From positions 4,846-26,148 of IMG/VR virus record IMGVR_UViG_3300030388_000387: a stretch of 21,303 nt of DNA; one strand, given 5' to 3'. This document shows positions 1 to 21,303 of this stretch, piece after piece. Below the pieces are notes generated by a model. It saw nothing but the letters and a program-made list of their open reading frames with translations. It was not told where the DNA came from and searched no databases. Each line of letters opens with the position of its first letter. Position 1 is the stretch's first letter. A program made the position numbers and the translations under genes. The DNA comes from a virus.

Positions 1-2045
1 AAGATTTTTCTGCATTAGAAGCGGTAGCAGCTAGAATGTCTGACAACAAAGGAAAGATGTTTCAAGAGCTTCTTAAAGAATTAAACTCCTCAGTAAGTGA
101 GGGCCGAGTTGTAGGCTTTGATCAATTTATTACTCCAAGAAGAGAAGTAGGTGGTGTAGATGGATACAGTGGTGACTTCATGAATGGTATTATGGCGTTT
201 GGATTAATGGCTTCTGATTTTGCCGCACGTAATGGTATGTCTAAAGAAGTTGCAAGAAACTATGGTAAGGCAAAAGATTATGCTGATAATCCTAGAAGTC
301 CTAAACCAAAATTAAGAGCAGCTATTACAGGTATGTATGACTATGGTGTAGTTGATGCTCACAACTATGAGTTTTCTGGACTAAGACGAATGGGTTTCTG
401 GTGGTTCTTGGGGGGCAATTTCTCTTCTGGTATCTTACAGACTATGAGTGCAGTACAATTTACTGGCCCAATACTATCACAATTTGCAGGCACTCCTAAA
501 ACAACAGTGCAATTAACTAGAGCATTTGATGATGCACGTAAGATGATGACTATTGTTGAGTCAGATTATGGTGACACGTTTATGAATGTAAGTAATGCAC
601 CTAAAGAATTACAAGCGTTGATACAAGAACGATTTAACAACGGAGTACTTAGACCTGGACAAGCTGGTTTGGAAAAAGGCCAAGCACCTAACGCTTCTAT
701 TATACCTGGCAAACGTGGTGCAGTTAGAAAGGCAGGAAGAATATTTGAACAAGGCATTATGAGTGGTGTCTTTAATACCTTTGAGACTTTCTCTCGTACT
801 GCTGCTTGGATTGCTTCATATAGGTTGGCATCAGATCCAGAGATGTTAAGAAAAGCTGATGAATATTATAGTGGATACAATGAAATATGGAATGCTAGAA
901 AAGCTAGGGAAGGTGGTATAGCAACTGCTACTATGTTTGCTGACCTAATGATTGATGAAACATTTGGTAATTATAGTAAAACTAATCGTCCTAAAATTAT
1001 GAGAGGACTTGGTTCAGTAGCTTTCTTATTCCAAACTTATGTTAATTTAATGCTTGGATTGTTACACAGTTTATTTGTTAAAGGTAACAGAAAAACAGGC
1101 GGAGCTATATTTGCTAAAGTAATGTTGATGATGTTTTTAACTGGCGGTGTATTAGGTATGCCAGGTGGTGATGATCTCAACAGAGCATATGCATTCTTAT
1201 CAAGACTTGGTGGATTTAACACAGATTTAAGAACTCAAATGAGAGACATGCTAACAGAAGTAACTGGCCCTAAAACTACTGACTTTATAATGAATGGAAT
1301 CTTTGAAGCATATGCTGGAGTGTCTATACAGCAAAGAATAACTCTAGGAAATTTACCTGGTATGCAACAAGTCTGGTCTATACTAGGTACTGTAGGAATG
1401 CCTACAGGTTCAAAACCTTACGAATTATTTGGAGCTCCTGGTGCTATTGTCTTAGGTATACCACAACAAATGATACAAATATCTAACCAACAAGGACTTG
1501 GACAAGCGGTAAAAAATTTAGATTTCTATATGGCAGCTGCTCCTTCGTTTATTAAAAACTTTTATAGAGGGGCATATAAATATCCGACCGAAGGATATGC
1601 GGATACTAGAAAAGGTACATTACTAACAGCAGACTTAACTACACCAGAGTTAATATTACAGTCATTAGGTTTTGCTTCTAATAAAGTAGCTAAAGAAAGA
1701 GACGCTTTATTCAGAGAAAGAATGATTGACACTAAGCATCAACAAGCACACCGTCAATTTAATGCTAGATATAAAGAAGCATACAGAGATTTATATATGG
1801 CGGAGAATATTACGTTTGATCCTTCTTTAACAGCAGATACATATAAAAGATTAGGCAAACTTAGAGTTGATGTTATTAAGTTTAATACTAAGATGGATGG
1901 AAAGTATGCCTACCGTCCTGATACAGCTAGACTGTTCGAAGAAGGCAGGCAACAAGCTAATCCTAAAGCAAGGATATATAGCTCAGATAAATTAAATATA
2001 CAAGAGAAAATGAAAAACAGAGAATCTCTTGGATTAGATTCTTAG
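1..2045 (+). CDS. C-terminal part of a large virion-type protein (5' partial)
   Basis: The reading frame is open from the window edge: the codons before the ATG at 36 contain no stop and read as a helical Ala/Glu segment, so the 669 residues from that ATG are probably only the C-terminal part of a much longer protein. It is helix-rich, with hydrophobic stretches around residues 325-380 (FLFQTYVNLMLGLL, then a Met/Leu/Gly-rich run) and a basic, charged tail. Composition and position at the end of a + strand arm resemble the C-terminal regions of giant phage internal-virion or 'large polyvalent' proteins that are ejected with the DNA; this is inference, since no catalytic motif is visible. It is the only + strand gene here and its stop overlaps the stop of the convergent - strand gene. 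The start at 36 has no convincing ribosome-binding site, which supports the partial reading. Confidence 0.6.
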   Translation, partial: DFSALEAVAARMSDNKGKMFQELLKELNSSVSEGRVVGFDQFITPRREVGGVDGYSGDFMNGIMAFGLMASDFAARNGMSKEVARNYGKAKDYADNPRSPKPKLRAAITGMYDYGVVDAHNYEFSGLRRMGFWWFLGGNFSSGILQTMSAVQFTGPILSQFAGTPKTTVQLTRAFDDARKMMTIVESDYGDTFMNVSNAPKELQALIQERFNNGVLRPGQAGLEKGQAPNASIIPGKRGAVRKAGRIFEQGIMSGVFNTFETFSRTAAWIASYRLASDPEMLRKADEYYSGYNEIWNARKAREGGIATATMFADLMIDETFGNYSKTNRPKIMRGLGSVAFLFQTYVNLMLGLLHSLFVKGNRKTGGAIFAKVMLMMFLTGGVLGMPGGDDLNRAYAFLSRLGGFNTDLRTQMRDMLTEVTGPKTTDFIMNGIFEAYAGVSIQQRITLGNLPGMQQVWSILGTVGMPTGSKPYELFGAPGAIVLGIPQQMIQISNQQGLGQAVKNLDFYMAAAPSFIKNFYRGAYKYPTEGYADTRKGTLLTADLTTPELILQSLGFASNKVAKERDALFRERMIDTKHQQAHRQFNARYKEAYRDLYMAENITFDPSLTADTYKRLGKLRVDVIKFNTKMDGKYAYRPDTARLFEEGRQQANPKARIYSSDKLNIQEKMKNRESLGLDS

Positions 2046-2062
2046 TTCTTAGAATCTTTTTT
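2036..2062 (+). terminator. Possible rho-independent terminator at convergent gene ends
   Basis: AGATTCT at 2036-2042 pairs with AGAATCT at 2051-2057 (7 bp, 8-nt loop) and is followed by a T run to 2062. It overlaps the stop codon of the + strand virion gene and lies inside the end of the opposing gene. The stem is AT-rich and weak, so the call is tentative. It would serve the + strand only, because no T run follows on the - strand. Confidence 0.4.
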
Positions 2063-2233
2063 CTTCTTATCTTCTACGGTCTCGACCGCTTCTTTTTTTA
2101 CTTGTAGTCCAGCTATTTGTGCTTTTAACTGTGTTATAGTAACTCGATATCCTATGATAGCAGTTTCTTTTTCTTGTAATTGACTTACAAGATCATTCAC
2201 AATTATCTGTTCATTGGTTGGTTGTTCACTCAT
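2042..2233 (-). CDS. Small Lys/Glu-rich coiled-coil protein
   Basis: A 63-residue protein with no recognised family. Residues about 10-50 have heptad-like spacing of Leu/Ile/Val (LVSQLQEKE, then LKAQIAGLQ), suggesting a short coiled coil, and the C-terminus is strongly basic (KKKKDSKN). The start is supported by AAGGAG six bases upstream of ATG at 2233. It is the last gene of the leftmost - strand unit, 26 bp after the holin-like gene, and its stop overlaps the stop of the convergent + strand gene. Position next to small membrane proteins would fit an accessory lysis or virion role, but nothing in the sequence establishes one. Confidence 0.7.
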   Translation of the reverse strand: MSEQPTNEQIIVNDLVSQLQEKETAIIGYRVTITQLKAQIAGLQVKKEAVETVEDKKKKDSKN

Positions 2234-2259
2234 GTGGTTCTCCTTGTTGGTTGTTAAAA

Positions 2260-2700
2260 TTATTTCTTCACTAATGATCCACCAAAATACAGACCAGTAA
2301 TTGCCGCCACGAGATTAGTATCAAGTGGTGTGATTACAATACCTGGTGCCGCCATTGGTACCCATTTCATTATCTCTTCACCTTCTGTAAAGAAAAGAAA
2401 CCCTGGCTTAAACTCTGAATAACCTACTATGATTTGTACTTCTGGCCAGAACAGTGGTACAATTTTAGGTAGAACAATAATAGAAAACACCGCAGTCAAT
2501 GCTATGATTCTTCTTGTCCATTGGAAGCCTACATCTTTATGTTCACGTGCTTCTTTATAACTAGCAGTCTGAACCTCAGCTCTTTGTAAGAGCATCTTCT
2601 GCTCATCTTGTTTAGCTTTGATCTTTTGCGACCATATGCTCATGACCCCACCGAGAACAGTGGAGCCAAGCATGGTAATCATTTCGAATGGAATACCCAT
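2260..2700 (-). CDS. Holin-like membrane protein
   Basis: A 146-residue protein with a predicted membrane segment near residues 5-22, a charged, helical, probably cytoplasmic stretch (about 25-60, rich in Lys/Glu/Gln), a second hydrophobic segment near 63-85 (RRIIALTAVFSIIVL) and a third Gly/Ala-rich one near 112-142. Three membrane segments, small size and position after the structural arm fit the phage / gene-transfer-agent 'three-TM holin' type, which forms lesions in the inner membrane for lysis. It starts at 2700 in a TAATG overlap with the 36-residue membrane gene upstream and has no obvious Shine-Dalgarno sequence, so it is probably translated by coupling. No endolysin is visible in the window. 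It could instead be a membrane-associated structural protein. Confidence 0.6.
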   Translation of the reverse strand: MGIPFEMITMLGSTVLGGVMSIWSQKIKAKQDEQKMLLQRAEVQTASYKEAREHKDVGFQWTRRIIALTAVFSIIVLPKIVPLFWPEVQIIVGYSEFKPGFLFFTEGEEIMKWVPMAAPGIVITPLDTNLVAAITGLYFGGSLVKK

Positions 2701-2810
2701 TAACTGTTAACAATGATTCCTATAATAACTACAACACCAATTGCAATTACTATCTTAGTTTTCTTACCAAGACCAATGTACCAGTCTTTAATTAGTTTTA
2801 TTTTTTCCAT
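2700..2810 (-). CDS. 36-residue single-pass membrane peptide
   Basis: A short gene starting at ATG 2810 with AAGGA six bases upstream. The N-terminal half is amphipathic and basic (MEKIKLIKDWYIGLGKK) and the C-terminal half is one Ile/Val/Gly membrane helix (KIVIAIGVVVIIGIIV). The stop overlaps the next start as TAATG, a classic coupling arrangement with the holin-like gene. Such a pair could be a holin with a partner peptide, or a regulator of lysis timing; this is inference from context. The clear ribosome-binding site and both-side overlaps make it likely to be a real gene despite its size. Confidence 0.65.
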   Translation of the reverse strand: MEKIKLIKDWYIGLGKKTKIVIAIGVVVIIGIIVNS

Positions 2811-2910
2811 TTGTTTTCCTTTTCTTTTTACCTACGCCAATAGTTTTCTTGTTAAGCATCTGTGCTAATTCTGCAAAGCTAATGCGTTCTTCTTCATTTT
2901 CTTTTGACAT
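2788..2910 (-). CDS. 40-residue highly charged protein
   Basis: Read from ATG 2910 this gives a 40-residue protein with an acidic N-terminus (MSKENEEERISF), a short Leu/Met-containing helix and a very basic Lys/Asn tail. The frame stays open upstream to 2979, but the earlier in-frame ATG would overlap the preceding gene's coding region; 2910 is the more economical start. The nearest purine-rich site (AAGGA) is about 13 bases away, so the ribosome-binding evidence is weak. Its 3' end overlaps the start of the 36-residue membrane gene by 23 bases. No family recognised. Confidence 0.5.
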   Translation of the reverse strand: MSKENEEERISFAELAQMLNKKTIGVGKKKRKTNGKNKTN

Positions 2911-2920
2911 GGGTTGTTGG

Positions 2921-3061
2921 TTAGTCCTTATCTTGTTTAAGATTGTCAGTTGTATCTTCAACCTTAACTGCATCACCACCTATTGTAACAGATGGTGCAT
3001 TAAGTTCTGGGTATGGTATGTTAAACCCTGTCTTAATTTCTTGTGGTTCTTTATCGCTCAT
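2921..3061 (-). CDS. 46-residue acidic small protein
   Basis: ATG at 3061 is preceded by AGGAG at five bases. The product is 46 residues, acidic, with Pro/Gly-rich middle (GFNIPYPELNAP) and a charged C-terminus, no hydrophobic segment and no recognised family. It sits between the metallophosphoesterase and the cluster of small lysis-like genes. The strong ribosome-binding site and absence of any overlapping alternative on this strand support it as a real gene of unknown function. Confidence 0.6.
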   Translation of the reverse strand: MSDKEPQEIKTGFNIPYPELNAPSVTIGGDAVKVEDTTDNLKQDKD

Positions 3062-3071
3062 AAAGTCTCCT

Positions 3072-3100
3072 ATTATATCAAATAAAGGGGGCACATGCAA
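3072..3100 (-). promoter_or_regulatory. Possible promoter before the small lysis-like genes
   Basis: On the - strand TTGCAT (3100-3095) is followed after 17 nt by a perfect TATAAT (3077-3072). The same TTGCAT hexamer occurs in the promoter at 19335-19362. Against it, initiation about seven bases downstream would remove the AGGAG of the 46-residue gene, giving a nearly leaderless message for it. A GGGGGCA/TGCCCCC heptamer lies in the spacer. Confidence 0.3.
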
Positions 3101-3103
3101 GGA

Positions 3104-4333
3104 TTATTTCCATTGTACCCACTCAGATTTTGGCTTCTTTCTTAGTGCTTGCTCAGACATTACAGGTAATTGAAAAGTTATACCATATTTAGGGTGTGTA
3201 AACCATAAAGCTTGGCGTGGTTCTTCAAAAGAAAACCTGTTACTCATTGCATATTCATCATAACCTTTTAGTGATCCATTAACTATGATACCTTTTAAAG
3301 TTAAGTACTGATGCCAATGACCCATGATAACATAATCAATAGGCTTCTTGTGTGTAGCATATTCAATCTTAACCTTAGAAACTCCTCGAGCAATCGGACC
3401 TAACATACCTACTACTCCACTGCCCCCCTTAACTCCAAGCCTATCACCATGAGTTAACAAGTAGCTAACATCATATACTTTGTAATAAGCATCAAAGCCA
3501 AATGGTATTTGGAATTGTACTCTGTCATCCTTGGCATTAGTATAATGTTTCTCAAGCATAGTATATAACATCCAGTCAAAACTGGTTGCCGCTGCTTGCT
3601 TATGTCTGTATTGTTTAAACATTCTGCCATGATTACCAAAGGCACACGGTACAAACACTTTGCCAAACACATCAGCTAGTGAATCAATTGCCCATGTCAA
3701 GTGGTCAAAGAGTTCTAGTACATGCTCAATGTTAGTGCCATCATTTGTTTCTGCTAGCTCTTCATGGATATGACCAGAGATCATATCACCACCAAGGGCA
3801 ACTACAATACCTGGATACTTAGGATTAACCATGTGGTTAGTACATAGATCTATGGTAGATTCGATAGTAGATTTAAGTCTAGCTTTAGCTATGTCTCTAT
3901 CAAAAGTATTTAGATGGTTTACCTCGGCTGAATTAACTACTTCACCCCAGTGAAAATCAGATAGAAATAATGTAGGTACACCTGGTGCGCCATGCGCAGG
4001 AGATGCTTTGGTTAACCACTTAGGTGGCTTGGCCTTGCGATTGTGTAATTGAAACACAGTCTTTCTGATTTGTTCTGCTGTAATATTTTCTAGTGCCAGC
4101 TCTTTAACTTGAGTTCTTAGTTCTTTAAGTTGCATATCATGCAACATCTTTTGTTCTACTAGGGCAGCAGATGTGTCGGGGGCATTAACATTTGGTGCAA
4201 TGCCTTCTCGTTCTGCAGTATCCAGTCTACCTATCAAGGTAGTACGTGGTATCCCTAAGTTCTTAGCCGCCTCTGCTTTGTTGCCTTTAGCAAGCACTAC
4301 TGCGTTGACTGCTTCTTGTACTTTGTCCATCAT
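3104..4333 (-). CDS. HTH-metallophosphoesterase fusion protein
   Basis: A 409-residue protein. Residues about 7-42 form a Fis-type helix-turn-helix (GNKAEAAKNLGIPRTTLIGR), followed by a helical linker to about residue 105. From 120 onward is a calcineurin-like metallophosphoesterase with its metal-binding blocks in order: SDFHWGE (125-131), GGDMISG (181-187), GNHGR (233-237), THGDR (294-298) and GHWH (338-341). Enzymes of this fold hydrolyse phosphodiester bonds with two metal ions, and the DNA-binding domain suggests a DNA substrate, so an Mre11/SbcD-like nuclease or repair role is plausible but unproven. AGGAG lies seven bases before ATG 4333. It follows the 127-residue gene by 15 bp and shares its promoter at 4809-4837. 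Confidence 0.8.
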   Translation of the reverse strand: MMDKVQEAVNAVVLAKGNKAEAAKNLGIPRTTLIGRLDTAEREGIAPNVNAPDTSAALVEQKMLHDMQLKELRTQVKELALENITAEQIRKTVFQLHNRKAKPPKWLTKASPAHGAPGVPTLFLSDFHWGEVVNSAEVNHLNTFDRDIAKARLKSTIESTIDLCTNHMVNPKYPGIVVALGGDMISGHIHEELAETNDGTNIEHVLELFDHLTWAIDSLADVFGKVFVPCAFGNHGRMFKQYRHKQAAATSFDWMLYTMLEKHYTNAKDDRVQFQIPFGFDAYYKVYDVSYLLTHGDRLGVKGGSGVVGMLGPIARGVSKVKIEYATHKKPIDYVIMGHWHQYLTLKGIIVNGSLKGYDEYAMSNRFSFEEPRQALWFTHPKYGITFQLPVMSEQALRKKPKSEWVQWK

Positions 4334-4348
4334 ATATGTTCTCCTATA

Positions 4349-4732
4349 TTATTTTTTGACATTAGAATCATTTACGATTCTGTTAAACCCATCAACAACT
4401 GCACCCTCTGGTGCACTCTTTAAGGTTCCGTTTGCATGGTAGGCAGGTGCTACTATTCTGTATACCAACTCTCGTGGAGGATCGGAAGGCATGTATGAGC
4501 CAGTCCATTCTCCGGTTCTTTCGTAGCGTCTTATCTCAGCTAGATCACTCTTCGCATCTAGGTAAGTTCTGTAATGTTCAGCGTGGTCTTTATCTCTTTG
4601 ACCTAATCTTCTTGATAGTCTGTATGCAGCAGACATGGCTTCAGTCTTATCTTTCTTCCACTTGTCTAATGTCTTTTGATCCACTGTTTCGAGTGGTGTA
4701 CTTACTGATGGGTATTTAGGGTGGTACTTCAT
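4349..4732 (-). CDS. Hypothetical charged protein, first gene of the left operon
   Basis: A 127-residue soluble protein, not recognised. Residues about 18-75 are helical and highly charged (Lys/Arg/Asp/Glu), and the C-terminal half contains a short Pro/Gly-containing segment (GEWTGSYMPSDPP) that may be a compact fold. The start at 4732 has AGGAG at six bases. It is the first gene after a strong promoter and a structured leader in which a predicted helix ends right at the ribosome-binding site, so its translation may be regulated. The metallophosphoesterase gene follows directly. Confidence 0.7.
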   Translation of the reverse strand: MKYHPKYPSVSTPLETVDQKTLDKWKKDKTEAMSAAYRLSRRLGQRDKDHAEHYRTYLDAKSDLAEIRRYERTGEWTGSYMPSDPPRELVYRIVAPAYHANGTLKSAPEGAVVDGFNRIVNDSNVKK

Positions 4733-4840: not shown

Positions 4841-6763
4841 TTAATTTGACGATATATCAACTATCTCACACACCCCAGAACTACAGGCTAACTCCTGCGA
4901 TCCAGTTGTATTGTCTTCTTCTTCGTAGTTACTTAGCTCTGACCAATCTACATGTTGTGGCATTAATTTAATTGCGTCTAGATATTCCTCTTTAGTTATG
5001 TCTTGATATGGTGCTTGTTGATACACATGCTCTGAATGCGGTAGGAAACTAACACCAGATATCTCATCGAAATGTTTGTATACCCAAGCCCCTACTTCTA
5101 ACCATTCGTTTTCTCTCACTGAGACTGTACATGAAGGCTTGTGCTCACACCAGTATCTTTGGTACATCAGCCATGTTTCTAATTGATTGATAGCTGATAG
5201 ATCGTGCCTAGTTATGCAACCCTCTGGTGCTTTCATAGGAAATGAGAACACAACAACTGAGTCTGGCTTAGTTATATCTGGTTCATGTGGCATGCCCTTC
5301 TCTATCATTAGAGTTGTTAAAGGATCTTTCTTATCCGCACGTACTGTACGTATATAGTATTGGCTATGTCTGCTGTGAATACCAGAAGCACTATCAACTA
5401 ACTGACTTACAGTACCAGATGGTTTAACACAAGTGATAGCAGTTGATTGTGGTATGCCTAGTTTCTTAGCAAACTCTTTGTTAGTATCTACTGCCTCTTT
5501 GCGTAGACGCATTAAGAAATCTTTGTTAGGACTACTAGTAAGTTTGTTGTCCATGATACCTGTTAGTGATACTCCAAGCAATCTTTCTTCTTCAGTGTTC
5601 TGTCTCCATTGCTTACGTAGATATTTAAAATCAGTGAAGGTAGATTGGAACGTACCCAGTATAGTTGCGGCTCTTACTTTAGCTAATAGATCTTTCTCAC
5701 CATCAGTTGCACGAATGACTACCTCAGTTAGATTACAGAATTGATATGGTCGTAGTATAATTTCAGAGCAAGGGTTAGTACCAAAGTCCCATTCAGCATC
5801 TCGTCTACCATTCTCTGAAGCTTTATTTTTGGCGGCTTGCCTATTGAATATACCACGCTCACCAGACTTAGAATCATATAGACTCTTCCATTCATTTATA
5901 AACACAGACATATCTGGCTTAGAAGTATAGGCCGCTGAGTTATTAGAGAGGGCACGTTGACCTTCATCTATCCACCATTGACCGGTCTTAGCTCCACGCA
6001 TTCTATCATCTTGTAAGTTACTAAGTGATATCAAAGCGGATCTTCTTACTCCACCTACTACTACAACTTCGCCAACCTTACATACAATGTCGTGACACTC
6101 TAATGAATTAAGCCGTCTACCTGCTGCATTCTTAAATGCTTTGATAGTAAATTCAAATAAGTTTATTAAAGGTTGAGGCCCACTTGCTCGCCCCCCAAAT
6201 GTTTTTAATCGTGCACCAGCAGGACGTACCCGTGATACATCTATCTTTGGTACTTGCCCAGAGTAAAGCATCGCAACCAATTCCCTAAATGATTTAGCCC
6301 ACCCAGCCTTGCTGTCTTGTACAATTATAGTTGTGGCAGTATCTTCAAACTCTTCGGCAATGGTAGGTAGCTTTTCTATGTTGCTACGTTCAACTGAAAA
6401 GCCTACGCCTGTACCACACAAAAGTATATACATAACCTCATCGAAAGATCTAACATGATCTATTGGTATGTAGCTACAGTTATACCCAGCAGTGTGATCT
6501 CTGTCTAGTGCAGGCCCAGCTGTCATCAATGCTCGCATTGACGGCATGACTTGTAATGATAATATGGAGTTGGTTAGTTCGGATTTTATTTTAGAGTTTA
6601 GTTTATATTTAAAATTAGTGTTGAGATTTTCAGATACAAAGTCTACATATCTGGTGACAGTTTCAGGCCAAGCCTCTCGTCTTTTTTCAGCATCAATAAA
6701 TCGAGCGTACCTAGAGGTATGGATAAATTGTTGGTATTCAGTAGGCAGATAATTGTTAGTCAT
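4841..6763 (-). CDS. Class II (B12-dependent) ribonucleotide reductase
   Basis: A 640-residue enzyme of the monomeric adenosylcobalamin-dependent ribonucleoside-triphosphate reductase type, which makes deoxynucleotides for phage replication without oxygen dependence or a second subunit. Key residues are in place: Cys96 (NCSY) and Cys343 (FCNLTE) as the active-site redox pair, the N330-P-C332-S-E334 block with the thiyl-radical cysteine Cys332, and the C-terminal relay pair Cys627/Cys632 (ACSSGVC). The 11-residue Cys332-Cys343 and 5-residue Cys627-Cys632 spacings match the Lactobacillus-type enzyme. Other family blocks include PSMRALMTAG (74-83) and a KPSGT loop at 447. AGAGG lies seven bases before ATG 6763. 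It stands alone between two promoters, so it is a one-gene unit that can be controlled separately. Its length is within the range for short phage versions. Confidence 0.93.
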   Translation of the reverse strand: MTNNYLPTEYQQFIHTSRYARFIDAEKRREAWPETVTRYVDFVSENLNTNFKYKLNSKIKSELTNSILSLQVMPSMRALMTAGPALDRDHTAGYNCSYIPIDHVRSFDEVMYILLCGTGVGFSVERSNIEKLPTIAEEFEDTATTIIVQDSKAGWAKSFRELVAMLYSGQVPKIDVSRVRPAGARLKTFGGRASGPQPLINLFEFTIKAFKNAAGRRLNSLECHDIVCKVGEVVVVGGVRRSALISLSNLQDDRMRGAKTGQWWIDEGQRALSNNSAAYTSKPDMSVFINEWKSLYDSKSGERGIFNRQAAKNKASENGRRDAEWDFGTNPCSEIILRPYQFCNLTEVVIRATDGEKDLLAKVRAATILGTFQSTFTDFKYLRKQWRQNTEEERLLGVSLTGIMDNKLTSSPNKDFLMRLRKEAVDTNKEFAKKLGIPQSTAITCVKPSGTVSQLVDSASGIHSRHSQYYIRTVRADKKDPLTTLMIEKGMPHEPDITKPDSVVVFSFPMKAPEGCITRHDLSAINQLETWLMYQRYWCEHKPSCTVSVRENEWLEVGAWVYKHFDEISGVSFLPHSEHVYQQAPYQDITKEEYLDAIKLMPQHVDWSELSNYEEEDNTTGSQELACSSGVCEIVDISSN

Positions 6764-6838: not shown

Positions 6839-7321
6839 TTATACAAATGTCCTTAAATATAATGTAGATAAATCTTGCTTATACATATCAGCAATATCAT
6901 CTATGATTACTCCCTTAGTGTTAGGGTTTAGAAACTTACATACTTGCACCATAATAATATTGGTGTCTGGATATAGCCGTTCTACTATGGGTCTGTATAG
7001 ATAACGTAGTTGTACCTCAGCTACTCTCCTAGATTTTAATTTACATTCTAAGATTAAAAGATCTTTGACATCTCCATGTGGTAAGATTAGTATGTCAGAT
7101 TGGCAGTAACCTACACCCCGTCTATCCTGGTATTGATACCACTGGCCATGCAATACATTCTCATCTCCATAGATTGCTTTCATATAGCTAGCTACTCTAT
7201 TCTCATAGAGCACGCCAGCTCTCTTCACGCCTGTTAACCTTGGAGAGGGTATAAATACAGGACGTTCATCAAGAGCCTTTGCCCATTGCAACTTACTGAT
7301 TACTAAACGTCTTTTCGACAT
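6839..7321 (-). CDS. PD-(D/E)XK superfamily nuclease
   Basis: A 160-residue protein with the core of a PD-(D/E)XK nuclease: an N-terminal helix with Glu40 (VLYENRVA), Asp76 in QSDILIL and the paired Glu92-Cys-Lys94 in LLILECKLK, spaced as in the family, then a helix-strand pattern consistent with the fold. It probably cuts branched or damaged DNA as an endonuclease or resolvase; the substrate cannot be read from the sequence. It overlaps the 3' end of the helicase-like gene by 19 bases and is the last gene of the replication operon. The ribosome-binding site is weak, so translation may be coupled to the gene before it. Confidence 0.7.
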   Translation of the reverse strand: MSKRRLVISKLQWAKALDERPVFIPSPRLTGVKRAGVLYENRVASYMKAIYGDENVLHGQWYQYQDRRGVGYCQSDILILPHGDVKDLLILECKLKSRRVAEVQLRYLYRPIVERLYPDTNIIMVQVCKFLNPNTKGVIIDDIADMYKQDLSTLYLRTFV

Positions 7322-8568
7322 GGAAAAACCACATTCCCTTCGACCTTGATGTAACCAGAATCTTCCATAGCCCGGATAGTTTGTTCTAACTCTCCAGGAT
7401 TAGGAACCTTACGTAGCAATTCTCTTTTAAATAACTTCATAAGCATATGGCTTCTGCCGTTATTAAATAGTGTACCATTCAACCATGTTACCATGTCATG
7501 TGCAATGCGACCTGTTCTGCCCATACCAAAACCTTCTAAAGCTTTAGGCATTTGTTTCTCAGCCGCAAACATTAATTCTTTTGTGAACTCCCAGTCTTCT
7601 AACATAATCTTACGAGTGCTTCTGCGTGATGCTGATACTGCGATAGCAATCTTAATGAAGTGAGATACTCTACGTTGCACATACTCTGATAGATGATTAT
7701 CTGTAGGCTCTGGCGGTATGCCTGCCTTGATGTCTTCATCCACAATCTTGAACGCATCCTCATCAAAAGTCATTGGCCCGTACATCTTAGCTATGTCAGC
7801 TAAGTCTTCACGTAAATTGTTTACTGTATTGTCACTAACTCTTTCTTGTATAAGCGACTGTGGTATTCTATCACCATCATAATAGATAGGGAGTATACGA
7901 GATAACAACCCTTGGGATCGTGCATCTTCTGGCAGGTTGTCTACAAACTGTTCTGGTGTAGCACAGGCTAGCCAATTAAGGCACGGCCCTTTGATTAAAT
8001 ATTCACCAGAGGTTTTAGTCTTGTGACTGTACTCAGCTTTAGAGTCCCACATATCTGTCATAAACATTTGTAAATATCTTTCGTGCCTGCCCATAAAGGT
8101 ACCAAACTCTGACGTTATTAAAGTAACTGATGAGTCATAGAACTCTTCCATGATAGGAGAAGACAAACGTAGATCTAGTCTGGTAATCCTAGTCATGTCT
8201 ACTGCCAATTTCTCTGGCGTGATTCTATCTTGTACTGAGTACAATGGATAGTTACGTAAGCCATACTGATCTAATCCAGAGTTAAAGTTCTGATCATCTT
8301 CAGTAGTACCCACTGGTGTAGTTAGTTTACTAAATACTTTTGTGAATGGTAAGATTAAACTTACTGATTTGTTTCGCCCAGGAGGGGCAATCAATACCAC
8401 AAATAAATTGGCTCGTATATCATAGTTAGCCATTGGGTACCATACTCTTCTGCCTAATGCTCCAGCTACTGCACTGAGTGCACTCCACTGTGCAAAAGGT
8501 TTAGGTATCGGACTACCCTTGATAGCATCTGCTGATGCCTGTACAAAGTCTGCATAATTTCTACTCAT
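7303..8568 (-). CDS. Phage replicative helicase/primase-like ATPase (DUF3987-type)
   Basis: A 421-residue protein with a Walker A-like loop at about residues 60-68 (IAPPGRNKS) preceded by the segment FAQWSALSAVAGALGRRVWY, a pattern I associate with DUF3987-type proteins found beside phage polymerases. It has no visible primase zinc finger. The C-terminal 70 residues look like a winged-helix domain (LMKLFKRELLRKVPNPGELEQ). It starts at 8568 inside the last codons of the polymerase gene (ATGAGTAG overlap), which indicates tight co-translation with it. The likely role is unwinding or loading at the replication fork. Confidence is good for a P-loop replication ATPase and lower for the exact family. 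Confidence 0.65.
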   Translation of the reverse strand: MSRNYADFVQASADAIKGSPIPKPFAQWSALSAVAGALGRRVWYPMANYDIRANLFVVLIAPPGRNKSVSLILPFTKVFSKLTTPVGTTEDDQNFNSGLDQYGLRNYPLYSVQDRITPEKLAVDMTRITRLDLRLSSPIMEEFYDSSVTLITSEFGTFMGRHERYLQMFMTDMWDSKAEYSHKTKTSGEYLIKGPCLNWLACATPEQFVDNLPEDARSQGLLSRILPIYYDGDRIPQSLIQERVSDNTVNNLREDLADIAKMYGPMTFDEDAFKIVDEDIKAGIPPEPTDNHLSEYVQRRVSHFIKIAIAVSASRRSTRKIMLEDWEFTKELMFAAEKQMPKALEGFGMGRTGRIAHDMVTWLNGTLFNNGRSHMLMKLFKRELLRKVPNPGELEQTIRAMEDSGYIKVEGNVVFPCRKDV

Positions 8569-10105
8569 TTGGTTTCCATTTCTTCATGTTCTTCCAATCG
8601 AGACCTGTCTCACAATCAGAAGGTATTATCATTTCTCTATCGCCTACCTGCATAGGATTCTTCATGCGTGCTAGTATCTTAGGTATAACCTCAGCTTCTT
8701 TGCCAATAGGAAACTGCCCTAAGATTGCATCATGTACCTGTCCTAATACTTCTACGCCATCATCTTTTAATTCATCCCACACACGGTACAGTCCTATGTT
8801 TAATAGATCACCAATGGTGGATTGAGGTACATATGCAATAGCTTTCCTTAAGGTAGTAGCTTCATCCAGTCTACCCCAGAATTGTCTGCGTCTACCGAGT
8901 GGAGTTGTTAGTGTACCCTCTAGTTGTAACTGCTTCGCAGTCGCATCATGCCACTTACGTATGCCTGGAAATGCCCCCTGTATTCTGACTAAGGAAGATG
9001 GGCCAGTCCCTAAAATCGTGCCCCCATCAATTAGCTCGTGGAATCCACCTTCCTTGTCTTGTTTGTGCCATCTCTCCAGTGATGACAACGCAATCACTCC
9101 ACCGTAGTAAAGTAATTGAAACCTCGTTGCGTGTGATAGCTTAATCTTTAAGTGCCTACCTAAAGATGTAGCCGATAGACCATAGTTAGTACCATGACCT
9201 GCTCGCTTACACATGTCCCTGTAACTGAAGTGTCCTATGTATGGACGATCAGCAAGCTCTCTGTTCTGTGCAAGATCAGAAGACCAACCCATATTAGGCC
9301 ATACCATTTTAACTACTTGGGTATGTAAGTCTTCCCCTTCACACGCATTAATGTATCCCTGATCTCCAGCAACATACGCTGATACTCTAGACTCTGCTTG
9401 TTCCAAGTCAGCGTAGAAGAGTACGTTACCTTCATCGGGTACAAATATTTCTCGCATATCTTTTGTAATGTTCTGCAGGTTAGTACCTGTGCCCCAAGGA
9501 CTTTCAGAACTTGACCATCTGCCAGTCTCAGTACCTGCTACTTTAAATGAAGTACGAAGTCTACCATCAGAATCTCTCTCACAATTGAGTATGTTTAATT
9601 GTTTATCTATGTCACGCAAAGCTATGATAGAATTACAGAATGGCCTAGCCCGTGGGTACTCTCTCCGTAAATGTTCTAGTGCTTCTTTGTCAGTCGATAC
9701 TTTTTGTTTACCTTTAGCATAGGCTATAACTTGTGGTAAGTTAAGCCATTCATATAAGAAACTCTTAAGCTGTAGAGGACTGTTGTGATTAAGATCTTTA
9801 TCCCATACTGCATTAGCAAATAGATTCAACATGCGTTCTACCTTGACTCGGTTCTTGATAAGGGGGGCACGGAGTAATCCTGCCTTCATCTCATCAACCT
9901 TCAGTCCACGCAACATCATACTAAGTGCTGGCTTGAGGCTATCTAATTCAAACTTATACGTCTGCTTAGTAGTCTCGTCTAATTCTTTTGATAGCTTCGA
10001 CCATATCTCACTGGTGAGTGAGCAGTCTAGTCCGCAATATACCCAAAGAGTTTGTTCCTTACTTAACTCTTGAGCCGCTATCTCCGTGTTCTTTATTATT
10101 TTCAT
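8561..10105 (-). CDS. Family A DNA polymerase, polymerase half (separate polypeptide)
   Basis: A 514-residue protein that starts inside the exonuclease domain. Residues 23-27 (YCGLD, followed by CSLT) are the Exo III motif; the polymerase follows with motif A (YADLEQAESR, Asp233), motif B (Arg296, Lys300, Tyr308-Gly309 in CKRAGHGTNYG) and motif C (QVHDA, His458-Asp459). Exo I and Exo II are missing and lie on the gene at 10654-11757. The residue aligned with E. coli Phe762 is His304. Two ATGs are adjacent; AGGAG is seven bases before ATG 10105 and four before 10108, so 10105 is preferred, giving 514 residues. A longer in-frame ATG at 10129 lies upstream of the ribosome-binding site. It copies phage DNA, presumably as a complex with the other half. 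Confidence 0.92.
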   Translation of the reverse strand: MKIIKNTEIAAQELSKEQTLWVYCGLDCSLTSEIWSKLSKELDETTKQTYKFELDSLKPALSMMLRGLKVDEMKAGLLRAPLIKNRVKVERMLNLFANAVWDKDLNHNSPLQLKSFLYEWLNLPQVIAYAKGKQKVSTDKEALEHLRREYPRARPFCNSIIALRDIDKQLNILNCERDSDGRLRTSFKVAGTETGRWSSSESPWGTGTNLQNITKDMREIFVPDEGNVLFYADLEQAESRVSAYVAGDQGYINACEGEDLHTQVVKMVWPNMGWSSDLAQNRELADRPYIGHFSYRDMCKRAGHGTNYGLSATSLGRHLKIKLSHATRFQLLYYGGVIALSSLERWHKQDKEGGFHELIDGGTILGTGPSSLVRIQGAFPGIRKWHDATAKQLQLEGTLTTPLGRRRQFWGRLDEATTLRKAIAYVPQSTIGDLLNIGLYRVWDELKDDGVEVLGQVHDAILGQFPIGKEAEVIPKILARMKNPMQVGDREMIIPSDCETGLDWKNMKKWKPNE

Positions 10106-10379
10106 CATCCCTCTCCTGTGTGATTTCAATAAGTTTATTTATAAACCATTTGGCTTTCTCTAAATCTTGTATTGGTTTTTCTTTGTGCTCATATCTCCAT
10201 AGATATTTAAAAGCACTGCCTTGTAAGTAGTATTTAAATCCTTCACCTTGACTAGCTTGGATAGCATCAATACATCCGATGCCTCCCTTGTTATAATGTG
10301 ATGGATAGTTTACTGGATCATTGTCTTCTAATTCTTTTACTTTCTTAAAGAACTCAGTCATTTGTTTTACGTTTGTCAT
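10059..10379 (-). CDS. DUF3310-family small protein
   Basis: A 106-residue protein with the DUF3310 signature: DPVNYPSHYNKGGIGCIDAI near residues 20-39, then FKYYLQGSAFKYLWRY (about 48-63) and DLEKAKWFINKLIE. Members are common in phages and are sometimes labelled nucleotide kinase without proof, so no enzymatic activity is assigned. GAGGG is six bases before ATG 10379. The gene sits between the two halves of the DNA polymerase and overlaps both neighbours: 26 bases with the gene before and 47 bases with the polymerase half. Confidence 0.8.
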   Translation of the reverse strand: MTNVKQMTEFFKKVKELEDNDPVNYPSHYNKGGIGCIDAIQASQGEGFKYYLQGSAFKYLWRYEHKEKPIQDLEKAKWFINKLIEITQERDDENNKEHGDSGSRVK

Positions 10380-10647
10380 TTGCTACCCTCATTATATAAA
10401 AAAATTCTTGCTTGGATTTCTTAGGATCTAACATAGCAAAGTCACATATCAAATCAAAGTCTTCATCATTATTAAACAACCAATCAATGGCATCTTCTTT
10501 AAACTTTATATACTCCTTATCCTTACCTCGGTATGCAATGTCCTGCATAGCTTGATCTAATACGGAACGCCATAATACAATCTCATTCTCAATAGGAATG
10601 TACTCTTCCTCTATCGGCTTGGCCGCAAAGTATTGGGGACGTTTCAT
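10354..10647 (-). CDS. Hypothetical 97-residue protein within the split polymerase locus
   Basis: An acidic 97-residue protein. The central part (DAIDWLFNNDEDFDLICDFAMLDP) resembles small phage proteins with a W-L-x(n)-D-F-x(2)-[VI]-C-x(2)-A-x-L-D-P pattern that I have seen in other phages but cannot name. AGGA lies about nine bases before ATG 10647. It begins six bases after the stop of the exonuclease half and overlaps the DUF3310 gene by 26 bases, so it is part of the same operon. Confidence 0.65.
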   Translation of the reverse strand: MKRPQYFAAKPIEEEYIPIENEIVLWRSVLDQAMQDIAYRGKDKEYIKFKEDAIDWLFNNDEDFDLICDFAMLDPKKSKQEFFYIMRVANDKRKTND

Positions 10648-10653
10648 AAAGTT

Positions 10654-11757
10654 TTATTCCTGTGTTTTAGCGTTCTTAGAAAAACTTGTAAGGTTCTTCC
10701 ATGCCCCCTCGTTAGTATAGATAGAACCCAAGAAGCCTAATCCCTTTTCCATTTCTGGCTGGAGAGAATGTTGTGCATGCATGGTATCATGTATGATTCC
10801 TGCTACTTCTATTCCGTACTTATGGTTAAGCCAAGACACATCATACGTTTGGTTCTGTGCTACCTTGACTAGTGTCTCGTCTTCTAGTAATTCTTTTACT
10901 GCTGCCCATACTGCTAGCTCAGTAGTGTAGTCATAAAAAGTTAGAGACTTCTTGGTGATGTCCCTGAATGGTACGACCATTGAACGTTCTGGTGATGGTG
11001 CAAATCCTATGCAAGTAATCTCACCACTTGCTGTCTCGATGTCAAATGACAACGGATTGTCTTCACTGTTTTCTTCTTTACATTCTTTGAAGAACTGCAA
11101 GACTTCTTGGTATGTTGGTTCAATGTATATCTCTCTCTCTGTATTTATAATATCTGTAGTAGTAGATTCTCTTGCTGCTTTCTTTAGATCACTAACTACT
11201 GTAGGTCTAAACGCATAGTTCTTTATAACTGCAAACGGACTATAAGTTGGCATGACTTTGAAAGGTCTGCGTAGTCTGCTTGTGTTTGAATAAGTAAGTG
11301 CACCTCTGTATGAGCCGACCTTATCTATGTTAGTTACAGACCAGAAAGATAAACCACCCATAGTAATTATAATGTTAGGGTTGAAGTCATTGATCTCTTT
11401 GTATAATCTTTCAAGGTCTTGTTCATAGTCTTGCTTTAAAAATCCGTATTGGGAAGGAGAATAGTTTGACTTCCACTCCCCTTCTTTCTTGATAGCCTTG
11501 TACTCGTTCCGCTTGTGAAAGAAGAACTGAGCATTTTCTTGTGCTGGCTTTAATTGGAATGCATGAGTGAGCATTACGGTCTGTGCATCTATACCTGCGA
11601 GTGTGCACATGGGATTCAATACCTGTTGTATGCCTCCTGTATTTATTTTGTTAAGTCTAGATTCGGTAGTCGTAGGATATTCTAAAACTATGCAAATAGA
11701 ATTCCCAGAATCTGGAACCTGTGACTCAACCCGCTTATGTACTGCATACTCACTCAT
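10654..11757 (-). CDS. UDG-like domain fused to N-terminal part of PolA 3'-5' exonuclease
   Basis: A 367-residue protein with two parts. Residues about 20-200 look like a uracil-DNA-glycosylase-superfamily domain: CIVLEYPTT start, TGGIQQVL, NPNIIITMGG (127-136), a YRGAL loop (150-154) and VMPTYSPFAVIKN (168-180). The catalytic acidic block of family-4 enzymes is not obvious, so it may be non-catalytic. Residues about 205-367 are the proofreading exonuclease core with Exo I (FDIET, Asp239/Glu241) and Exo II (NQTYD, Asp306), then HDTMHAQH and GLGFLGSIYTNEGAW, where a normal PolA would continue to Exo III. The protein instead stops 14 residues later. Exo III is on the gene at 8561-10105. A UDG-like N-terminus on phage PolA is known, for example in SPO1-type phages. 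No clear ribosome-binding site is seen at 11757. Confidence 0.8.
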   Translation of the reverse strand: MSEYAVHKRVESQVPDSGNSICIVLEYPTTTESRLNKINTGGIQQVLNPMCTLAGIDAQTVMLTHAFQLKPAQENAQFFFHKRNEYKAIKKEGEWKSNYSPSQYGFLKQDYEQDLERLYKEINDFNPNIIITMGGLSFWSVTNIDKVGSYRGALTYSNTSRLRRPFKVMPTYSPFAVIKNYAFRPTVVSDLKKAARESTTTDIINTEREIYIEPTYQEVLQFFKECKEENSEDNPLSFDIETASGEITCIGFAPSPERSMVVPFRDITKKSLTFYDYTTELAVWAAVKELLEDETLVKVAQNQTYDVSWLNHKYGIEVAGIIHDTMHAQHSLQPEMEKGLGFLGSIYTNEGAWKNLTSFSKNAKTQE

Positions 11758-11768
11758 ACTATCACAAA

Positions 11769-12212
11769 CTACTTATTAATAATCTTTTTAATAGAAGCTT
11801 GTAATATGTCTTTGTTCTTTCCAACCATCTCGTGCTTTACAACACCCGAGAAAGACTGACCAATTGATTGCTCAAGTAGCTCACCAAAAGATTGTTCCTC
11901 ATCCATCTCGAGAGAATCAGTTAAGAAACTCTTTAGTGACATGGCTGGGTTCTTTTGTTTCATGGCATTAGGCGTAGCCCAATACTCCAGTCTTGTTGGT
12001 TCTGCATTAGCTATGTCAGCCTCATCCAAATCTGATTGGATAACTCCTGTAGCTTTTACATTTATCTTCACTAACGGAGTTTGGTTTTCACCTACTCTGT
12101 CTGATCGATAACTAGTAATTACAAAATCGTAACTACCTTCTGGTAAAGTAACCGTTTGTGGTACTTCGTTTGGTGACATGCTTAAAAAGTCATGTACGTC
12201 TGATCCTGTCAT
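11769..12212 (-). CDS. SSB-like / DUF669-type single-strand DNA-binding protein
   Basis: A 147-residue acidic protein with beta-rich organisation: a strand-like start (TVTLPEGSYDFVITSY), LVKINVKATGVIQ, then an acidic loop and a C-terminal strand plus basic tail (KIINK). The pattern fits the DUF669 / phage SSB-like proteins that occur beside Sak4-type ATPases. The likely role is coating single-stranded DNA for replication and annealing. GGAGG lies eight bases before ATG 12212. It is 12 bp downstream of the Sak4-like gene, in the same operon. Confidence 0.55.
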   Translation of the reverse strand: MTGSDVHDFLSMSPNEVPQTVTLPEGSYDFVITSYRSDRVGENQTPLVKINVKATGVIQSDLDEADIANAEPTRLEYWATPNAMKQKNPAMSLKSFLTDSLEMDEEQSFGELLEQSIGQSFSGVVKHEMVGKNKDILQASIKKIINK

Positions 12213-12224
12213 GGTATATACCTC

Positions 12225-13019
12225 CTATTTTGACATTGGTTTTGACAACTTCTTCTTCGCATTCCCTTGAATTGCATCAAACAATTTAGCAAGATCAAGC
12301 TCTGTGTTAGGTTCTAATATATCTAACGCAGGAACTTTGAGATCCATTCTATGATCTGATACAGTTCGAAGCGAACGTTCTGTGCCTTTGCTTGAACTCT
12401 TAGTGTCCACTCTACAAACACAGTTAAAGTATCGGCCCAATTTTGTAGATAGCTTTGAGCCCACACTAGTTGGATATGATTTACTCACACCCAAATCCCC
12501 TTCCATGTACTGCATGTGTGTTGTCACCACCACATTACACGGAACTTCTGAACCAGTTATATATTGTATGAGGTGTTGCACATCACGTGCCGCTGTTCCC
12601 CACTCTGGTTGAGATGGTTGTTCTGTTGGTTTCTTATTATTAAATACTAATGCACTACGTAATGCTGACTCACCCATAAGAGTAAGACTGTCGATTACAA
12701 GTACATCATCTTTAGTCCAAGTCTTGACTGAACCAAAGTCTTCATCTCCATCTTTCCAATTAGCAATTAAGTTTGCTCCCTTACGGAAAGCTTCTGCCTT
12801 ACCTATTGGATCTTTAAGAGTTACGTATGATACACGATCAACTCCCTCTGGAGTTAGTAGGTCTGTCAATATAGATAGACCATCATCGTAATCAAGTATA
12901 CGAAGATTCCTTCCTGCGTTAGCTAAAGAAGCTAGTGCTGCAGTCTTACCAGATCCGCTGTCGCCTACCAGTAATAGTTTAGTTACATCTGCTGATGTGT
13001 GTTCTTTAATACTTGCCAT
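12225..13019 (-). CDS. Sak4-like RecA-fold ATPase (AAA_24 type)
   Basis: A 264-residue P-loop ATPase. Walker A is GDSGSGKT (19-26), followed by LRILDYDDG, and Walker B is DVLVIDSL (about 104-111); a later PCNVVVTTH strand matches the sensor region. Short phage RecA-fold proteins of this kind (Sak4) promote strand annealing in recombination. The start is set at ATG 13019, with AGGAG at six bases; the earlier in-frame ATG at 13040 overlaps the TATAAT box of the promoter and cannot be on the message. It heads the replication operon, with the SSB-like gene next. Confidence 0.8.
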   Translation of the reverse strand: MASIKEHTSADVTKLLLVGDSGSGKTAALASLANAGRNLRILDYDDGLSILTDLLTPEGVDRVSYVTLKDPIGKAEAFRKGANLIANWKDGDEDFGSVKTWTKDDVLVIDSLTLMGESALRSALVFNNKKPTEQPSQPEWGTAARDVQHLIQYITGSEVPCNVVVTTHMQYMEGDLGVSKSYPTSVGSKLSTKLGRYFNCVCRVDTKSSSKGTERSLRTVSDHRMDLKVPALDILEPNTELDLAKLFDAIQGNAKKKLSKPMSK

Positions 13020-13038
13020 GTTGTTCTCCTGTGTTTGC

Positions 13039-13067
13039 ATTATACTAAATTAATTTGAATCCGTCAA
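13039..13067 (-). promoter_or_regulatory. Sigma70-type promoter of the replication operon
   Basis: TTGACG (13067-13062), a 17-nt spacer and TATAAT (13044-13039). Initiation would be near 13032, leaving a leader of only about 13 nt that still contains the AGGAG of the ATPase gene. This promoter fixes the ATPase start at 13019. Confidence 0.8.
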
Positions 13068-19585: not shown

Positions 19586-20521
19586 CTATAGGTTGCCTTT
19601 GTTACCATCAATGTTAGACAAGCCCCATATCCATTCGGCAGTACCGATAGGATTGAACTCGACCTCATCTAGGATAGCCTCTTGGGTTGCCCCCAAAAAG
19701 TCAGCGTCAGTTAGTTTGGTATCATCAGGTTGAGCCATGTCAATAGTTGATTCAGCGTAACCCCTACCATACCTATCTCTAGGCTGATCCCTGTCCCAGT
19801 CAAAGTTACTGTTGATTGAGTTGTCAAAGTAATTATCCCCAGTCATGTCATCATAGAAACCATAGTTACCATAGTTTCCATAGCCATTTGACTTTACCAA
19901 TGCCCCTGTCTTCTTGCCTGTGTTGACATCATAGTTGAAGCCTACACCACGATTGATCGAATAGGTATTTGATACCCAACCTATTCCCGCAACCTCTTTG
20001 CCTTGTTGTGGATTGACAATAGTAAACTCTTTTGTTTTACCATCAAGAAATACCATCTTGTCAGTACCGATTGTCTCGGCTAACATATCTTGCCATTCAA
20101 CATTGTATAGCATGGCAGGATTGTGAGCCAGTTGTGGGCGTAGTATCCACTTGATAAATTGGTGAGTGTCTGATTTGTTGGCGTCAATCATTGGGGTTGG
20201 TAATCTTGCCCCATTGTGCATTACCCATATGTCTCGACCATGTTCTTTGGCATTGAGTACTTGGAACGGGTGAGATAGTGAGCGAGTGGTTTCACCCTCA
20301 GTAGTAAATCTGAAGTGAATACCCATTGGTGTATCCAAATCCTTGTAGATATCCCACACCTTGTTGATATCTTTGAATGACTTAGGTACAATTTTGTGAG
20401 TGTGTACCTTGCCATTGTTGTAAAACATAACTCCGAAGCCATCAGAATTATTTTCGTAGGCACATTCCATTAAGTCAATGTCTACTTTCTTGGGGTTGTT
20501 TGTTTGTATTATTAAGCACAT
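19586..20521 (-). CDS. Class II glutamine amidotransferase-like protein
   Basis: A 311-residue protein with an Ntn-hydrolase glutaminase N-terminus: Cys2 as nucleophile after removal of Met, NNSDGFGVMF (24-33), GIHFRFTTEGE (67-77, Arg71), SHPFQ (83-87) and MHNG (101-104). These enzymes release ammonia from glutamine and pass it to a partner. The C-terminal half is unusual, with a Gly/Asn/Tyr/Asp-rich low-complexity stretch (about 210-260) and an acidic end. GGAG is eight bases before ATG 20521, and the amidoligase-like gene ends 26 bp upstream. Together they match the amidoligase-amidotransferase pairs described in phages and bacteria, in which an amide or peptide bond is formed on a protein or small molecule. 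Confidence 0.85.
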   Translation of the reverse strand: MCLIIQTNNPKKVDIDLMECAYENNSDGFGVMFYNNGKVHTHKIVPKSFKDINKVWDIYKDLDTPMGIHFRFTTEGETTRSLSHPFQVLNAKEHGRDIWVMHNGARLPTPMIDANKSDTHQFIKWILRPQLAHNPAMLYNVEWQDMLAETIGTDKMVFLDGKTKEFTIVNPQQGKEVAGIGWVSNTYSINRGVGFNYDVNTGKKTGALVKSNGYGNYGNYGFYDDMTGDNYFDNSINSNFDWDRDQPRDRYGRGYAESTIDMAQPDDTKLTDADFLGATQEAILDEVEFNPIGTAEWIWGLSNIDGNKGNL

Positions 20522-20547
20522 ATTTTTATCTCCATTTAAGTTAAGAT

Positions 20548-21303
20548 TTAACCATTGACAGCATTGTCAATAGCTTCGTTGATCTCATTGGTAACAAGTC
20601 TATTTGACTTGCCATCTTTGAGATAGCCTTTGCGAACAAACCATTCATTGATAAATGGATAGTCGGCTCGGTTTCTTGGTAGATTAAACCACTTCAAGAA
20701 ATCTCTGTAATGCAGTGCCTTGAAACTGCATTGTTGTACATATTCACCGAGTGCGAATGAGAACTCTAACACTCTAAGTATGCCATTCTTGGTGGCATTA
20801 CCTCTGAATATTCGTAGCTCGATTGATTGTGAGTGAGCGGTATTGACAGCCTCGTATTTGCTGTAGTCTCGTTGACCACCCTCTGCAATAGATTTTTTAC
20901 TGAACTTAGCGTAGTCGTTAGCTTTACGACCAGCGACCGCCTCAATAAATTTTCTGTTCATATCCTCATTGACAATCTGTAATATCTTACCGATTTGTGA
21001 GCCTGTAAACGAGCCACGATTTAGATGTACATGAATCCCACACGTGTCAGTATTCCATGCTTTGACATAAGTATTTTTATCTTCATCAGTCCACCCATTC
21101 CAATCAAATAGCTTATCTATTTGTTGCCTATGAAAAGCAAGGGTACAGGGTGCAGTCACCATCTCGAAACCATTCCTCAATGAGCCGTCAGATTTGAACT
21201 TGCAATATTCACCACCAAATAATTCATCAATCTGTTCGGGTAAATCGGTAGGGCAAGAACTTCGAGCTTCCCACTCACACTCAAGCCCACCAAGCAAAGT
21301 CTT
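20548..21303 (-). CDS. Amidoligase-like (COOH-NH2 ligase) protein, 5' partial
   Basis: The frame is open through the window edge, and the TTG at 21297 is not a compelling start, so the N-terminus is probably cut by a few residues. The visible protein (about 250 residues) has the blocks of the amidoligase_2 fold, related to glutamate-cysteine ligase and glutamine synthetase: GLECEWE (4-10), KSDGSL (35-40), EMVTAP (45-50), GIHVHL (87-92) and IELRIFRG (159-166), with the Glu and His residues that bind metal and ATP. It would join a carboxylate to an amine using ATP. The class II amidotransferase-like gene follows at 26 bp. Confidence 0.85.
   Translation of the reverse strand, partial: KTLLGGLECEWEARSSCPTDLPEQIDELFGGEYCKFKSDGSLRNGFEMVTAPCTLAFHRQQIDKLFDWNGWTDEDKNTYVKAWNTDTCGIHVHLNRGSFTGSQIGKILQIVNEDMNRKFIEAVAGRKANDYAKFSKKSIAEGGQRDYSKYEAVNTAHSQSIELRIFRGNATKNGILRVLEFSFALGEYVQQCSFKALHYRDFLKWFNLPRNRADYPFINEWFVRKGYLKDGKSNRLVTNEINEAIDNAVNG

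Follow-up and report, generated by a model that had tools for sequence, protein, structure and literature searches.

A family A DNA polymerase of marine phages divided between two genes at the Exo II–Exo III loop of its proofreading domain

Replication enzymes encoded in two cistrons have previously been described in phages, such as gp43A/gp43B of the T4-like Aeromonas phages 25 and 44RR and NrdA of phage Aeh1. A review of these systems (PMC2988022) describes pieces that, where this was examined, come together again into an active enzyme: the split gp43A and gp43B of phage 25 co-purify with polymerase activity, and the split NrdA of Aeh1 is fully functional. These are a family B polymerase and a ribonucleotide reductase, with a spacer that carries a homing endonuclease or is untranslated (PMC2988022). 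The marine OM43 phages MEP401 and MEP402 also encode their family A polymerase in two ORFs, separated by a small one, an arrangement common to most of their group; in their case it is the polymerase domain that is interrupted, leaving the whole exonuclease domain on the first ORF, and the authors suspected an intron (PMC10580990). The enzyme described here, in contrast to gp43A/B and NrdA, belongs to family A, has spacer genes without sign of mobility and is cut through the proofreading site. Its domain order and motifs are those of the polymerases of Microcystis phage Mel-JY34 (L083), ctMlz233 (L085) and phiLo (9qhs, a solved structure covering the UDG-like and exonuclease parts), which are, however, single polypeptides. 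While split phage polymerases are already known, a stable Exo II/Exo III break occupied by ordinary genes that can be exchanged appears to be a new form of them, and a search of the open-access literature found no family A enzyme described as divided at this point.

The window, i.e. the whole stretch of 21,303 nucleotides that was analyzed, is part of a 26,148-base IMG/VR virus record. The replication genes considered here lie on the minus strand, and are given below in order of transcription.

12225..13040, minus strand: Sak4-like annealing ATPase gene, upstream
11769..12212, minus strand: gene of a 147-aa protein, upstream of the exonuclease half
10654..11757, minus strand: exonuclease half, 367 aa, a UDG-like domain plus the N-terminal part of a DnaQ-like 3'-5' exonuclease (Pfam, Klenow alignment, UDG fold, invariant residues)
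10354..10647, minus strand: 97-aa gene of the MKRPQYF...LWRxVLDQ family, between the halves
10059..10379, minus strand: DUF3310 gene, between the halves (Pfam, 7.2e-18)
10113..10117, minus strand: AGGAG Shine-Dalgarno of the polymerase half, 7 nt ahead of its ATG at 10105
8561..10105, minus strand: polymerase half, 514 aa, the Exo III segment plus complete family A thumb, palm and fingers (Pfam, Klenow/Taq match by sequence and fold, invariant residues)
7303..8568, minus strand: DUF3987 primase/helicase-like gene, downstream of the polymerase half

An ORF check returned the coordinates exactly as a previous sequence-only reading had claimed them, together with the 97-residue and DUF3310 genes between the halves and the AGGAG and ATG proper to the 514-residue protein. 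The 548 nt from the stop of the exonuclease half to the ATG of the polymerase half are entirely coding, with a 6-nt gap between the exonuclease half and the 97-aa gene, a 26-nt overlap between the latter and the DUF3310 gene and a 47-nt overlap between the DUF3310 gene and the polymerase half, whose stop is in turn overlapped by the DUF3987 gene. From this packing we infer that the DUF3987 gene and the upstream genes form the same replication operon as the split polymerase, and that one polycistronic message would yield the two polypeptides. A promoter-like site precedes the gene block at 13067-13039 (11/12 matches), such sites being no commoner in the window than in shuffles. AGGAG or near variants are found ahead of the polymerase half in most relatives. 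In certain relatives (L036 5538-7733, L045 5538-7084 and L044 4175-5090) 0.9-2.2 kb of extra genes, some of them resembling 2OG-oxygenases, separate the polymerase half from the primase; in the window these two genes overlap instead.

Concerning the exonuclease half, Pfam assigns a UDG domain (3e-5) and a DNA_pol_A_exo1 domain (1.4e-10). The first spans approximately residues 1-200 and adopts the UDG fold (best Z 20.8, rmsd 2.0, 163 aligned); the VIA-align rows cover chiefly this UDG-like part, residues 1-204. The family 4 UDG catalytic motif GE(A/G)PG is absent from it, with LEYPT at the GEAPG position. Since the fold is kept but the usual catalytic motif is not, the UDG-like domain probably plays a structural role, its original activity having probably been lost. 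In the alignment to Klenow, residues 226-328 correspond to chain positions 19-122; this segment holds Exo I (D239, E241) and Exo II (N302, D306). Both motifs are thus on the 367-residue protein, as had been proposed; the accompanying statement that this protein ends just after GSIYTNEGAW needs correction, as 14 more residues follow (KNLTSFSKNAKTQE).

The polymerase half matches DNA_pol_A (PF00476, 6e-39, Pfam), and an alignment to Klenow pairs its residues 22-361 with positions 173-497. With residue 22 at chain index 173, and with a Klenow numbering offset that we take to be 323, Y23 and D27 coincide with Y497 and D501 of Klenow, which make up its Exo III, so that the alignment agrees with the view that Exo III opens the 514-residue protein. 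Among the family A hallmarks, D233, R240, R296, Y308, H458 and D459 are invariant, and position 301 is R or K. The Exo I, II and III residues of a DnaQ-like exonuclease are likewise all present, spread over two chains, and in place of the usual single polypeptide with exonuclease and polymerase there are two ORFs, in the window as in all relatives fetched. The catalytic residues of both activities, predicted to be complete, could all be mapped, and those of the exonuclease motifs are invariant in relatives.

Comparison with undivided enzymes places the break precisely. PHROG_17, a phage DNA polymerase family, is matched contiguously by the two products, from 467 to 799 by the exonuclease half and from 802 to 1239 by the polymerase half. 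On a profile of fused relatives, exonuclease-half residues 18-356 run collinearly along columns 10-343 and the polymerase half, from residue 16-17 onwards, along columns 352-787, leaving only about 8 linker columns unaligned at the junction. The new ends amount to a gain of about 14 residues for the exonuclease half and about 20 for the polymerase half. Motif mapping, together with the conservation of the split in relatives, corroborates that the enzyme is divided inside its exonuclease domain.

Relatives were counted among fetched IMG/VR loci with both halves at >45% identity. All 177 of 177 show the break at the same position, with no fused form among them; they represent 105 distinct stretches, and the one locus scored as not split (L151) is the window itself read in reverse; longer-reach scans with alignments returned, as their best 80 matches, mostly the same close relatives. 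Conserved in so many locus records and distinct stretches, the break is more than chance. The spacer measures 510-590 nt in the fetched relatives, and the relative reading frame of the halves varies. The same split point is found in the cultured, plaque-forming lake phage Kuura of Caulobacter and in a related contig, L200. In Kuura the halves are gp29 and gp26 (OQ067476), separated by two genes that are both unrelated to those of the window; its exonuclease half is annotated merely as hypothetical, and the word 'split' is absent from the Kuura paper (PMC9959647).

These data bear on whether a post-transcriptional event (intron splicing, ribosomal bypassing or frameshifting) unites the halves into one normal protein. 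Group I introns are frequent in phage polymerase genes, a point that PMC10580990 discusses for the split polymerase described there. The spacer, however, is filled with overlapping genes that are entirely replaced in Kuura and L200, its length and the relative frame vary among relatives, the polymerase half comes with a separate Shine-Dalgarno and start codon, and Rfam yields no match at E<=1 within 8000-12500, all of which makes such joining extremely improbable. Since the split point is conserved while spacing, frame and between-genes vary, and since the Rfam search is empty, the break reflects neither misassembly nor an intron. The same variation in frame and spacer genes, with no intron RNA found, supports the view that it is not a simple frameshift.

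Fused forms do exist among other relatives, as a survey of fused versus split forms shows: they were found in Mel-JY34, Tiera, ctMlz233 and a Desulfofustis phage, and five further fused polymerases were checked. In the resulting phylogeny every split row falls in one clade, with support of 99/98 for all columns and 97/98 for polymerase columns only. This clade joins the marine phages and Kuura and is surrounded by the fused forms, whose own order is unsure due to long branches among some of their rows. Since all split rows form a single supported clade, one old fission in an ancestor of these phages, followed by turnover of the genes in between, explains the distribution.

It should be noted that some relatives show breaks elsewhere. 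In the fused-type L082 (4525-5079), L220/L221 (4689-4912) and L226 (4728-5573) the polymerase is broken within its polymerase domain, at a recurring site immediately ahead of motif A; the L226 insert holds a gene resembling a SAM methyltransferase and no evident homing endonuclease. In L218 (1365-1662) and L224 (3648-3945) the same protein is broken between the UDG-like and exonuclease parts, with the pieces about 300 nt apart. In L215 and L219, near 4647, one stop closes the polymerase ORF inside the matched region, where there is extra sequence that could be an in-frame insertion or an intein.

Regarding the genes between the halves, the DUF3310 gene is swapped in relatives for a divergent DUF3310, a DUF6378 or unrelated genes, and in Kuura and L200 the between-genes are wholly unrelated, with an RNase H in L200. 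The 97-aa protein, with no Pfam, PHROG or NCBIfam match, is encoded beside the exonuclease half across the marine clade, although the adjoining gene alternates between DUF3310 and DUF6378; this would fit a third subunit bridging the two halves. Yet the family is missing from the Kuura/L200 branch, where the split persists, it is less conserved than either half, and its weak relative in Pelagibacter phage HTVC023P (gp19, 10247-10480) lies away from the polymerase of that phage, so that a bridging role seems very unlikely. The spacer genes would rather be exchangeable cargo and no part of the enzyme. A homing endonuclease was not found at the split site, where the between-genes comprise the 97-aa family, DUF3310, DUF6378, RNase H and unknowns; an ancestral one, since lost, is possible.

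Both parts of the divided active site show the marks of selection. D239, E241, N302 and D306 of the exonuclease half, together with Y23 and D27 of the polymerase half, are invariant across 70-82 distinct sequences, with the Exo III Tyr and Asp retained in all 82 distinct polymerase halves, and the codons of these exonuclease residues alternate synonymously (GAT/GAC, GAA/GAG, AAT/AAC, TAT/TAC). Since the motif residues are invariant while their codons vary synonymously, both parts of the site are under purifying selection. In comparisons with close relatives the exonuclease part has dN/dS values of 0.05-0.20 and the polymerase values of 0.05-0.08, those for segment 1-40 of the polymerase half being noisy (0.04-0.25). 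The stretch just before the break, residues 324-354, is the most conserved of the exonuclease half (71% invariant). When each half is modelled alone with AlphaFold, residues 324-367 of the exonuclease half fall at pLDDT <50 and residues 1-60 of the polymerase half at 53-64, values for which the shallow alignments (17-19 rows) may partly account. Since the low-confidence ends pack together in fused enzymes, they may be read in these models as lacking the partner chain.

We therefore weigh two ways in which the halves could operate. They might work separately, the polymerase without proofreading and the UDG-exonuclease protein as a free nuclease or accessory factor. Family A polymerases without exonuclease are viable, and the top Foldseek likenesses of the polymerase half are Taq and Bst fragments, without an active exonuclease; these fragments make up most of the fold matches, so that the comparison says little about the Exo III segment. 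Separate function is nevertheless hard to reconcile with an Exo III Tyr/Asp pair that serves only the exonuclease site and is kept under synonymous codon turnover, and with an exonuclease half that is without Exo III and whose end is unplaced when modelled alone, and we consider it unlikely.

The preferred reading, to which we give a probability of roughly 80%, is that two chains from one message dock to form a single proofreading polymerase whose exonuclease site is composite and is completed by the Exo III helix. A single family A polymerase gene, comprising UDG-like, 3'-5' exonuclease and polymerase parts, was cut once at the Exo II–Exo III loop. The first helix of the polymerase chain, bearing the Exo III Tyr and Asp, would dock on the exonuclease chain, thereby completing the two-metal exonuclease site and coupling proofreading to the polymerase, and the junction would thereafter have held small exchangeable genes outside the enzyme. 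A more speculative extension, with a low likelihood comparable to that of separately working halves, is that the exonuclease half acts as a dissociable proofreading subunit like epsilon of bacterial Pol III, allowing the phage to tune its mutation rate through the ratio of the chains or their docking; if true, this would be a family A polymerase in which a separable proofreader with a composite site has evolved.

Docked as proposed, the enzyme would represent a natural, old and stable case in which two genes each supply part of one active site, both in a marine phage group that is widespread and in the cultured Kuura. It makes testable how split polymerases reassemble, whether a separable exonuclease allows fidelity to be tuned and how a gap in an essential gene is colonised by ordinary genes. 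It also carries a warning for annotation, half of the Kuura proofreading enzyme being labelled hypothetical.

A final point concerns other genes of the window. Positions 4841-6763 encode a B12-dependent (class II) ribonucleotide reductase (PHROG_367, E 7.8e-190), and the gene at 3104-4333 combines an HTH_8 match at its start with a PHROG exonuclease match across most of its length. At 19586-21297 a weak glutamine amidotransferase class II-like gene stands beside an amidoligase-like gene, a possible amide-forming pair. The 669-aa protein encoded on the plus strand at 36-2045 aligns chiefly with the C-terminus of PHROG profiles of great length (1,664-4,647 positions, one of them DarB-like antirestriction), and is possibly a separately encoded tail piece of a giant protein.
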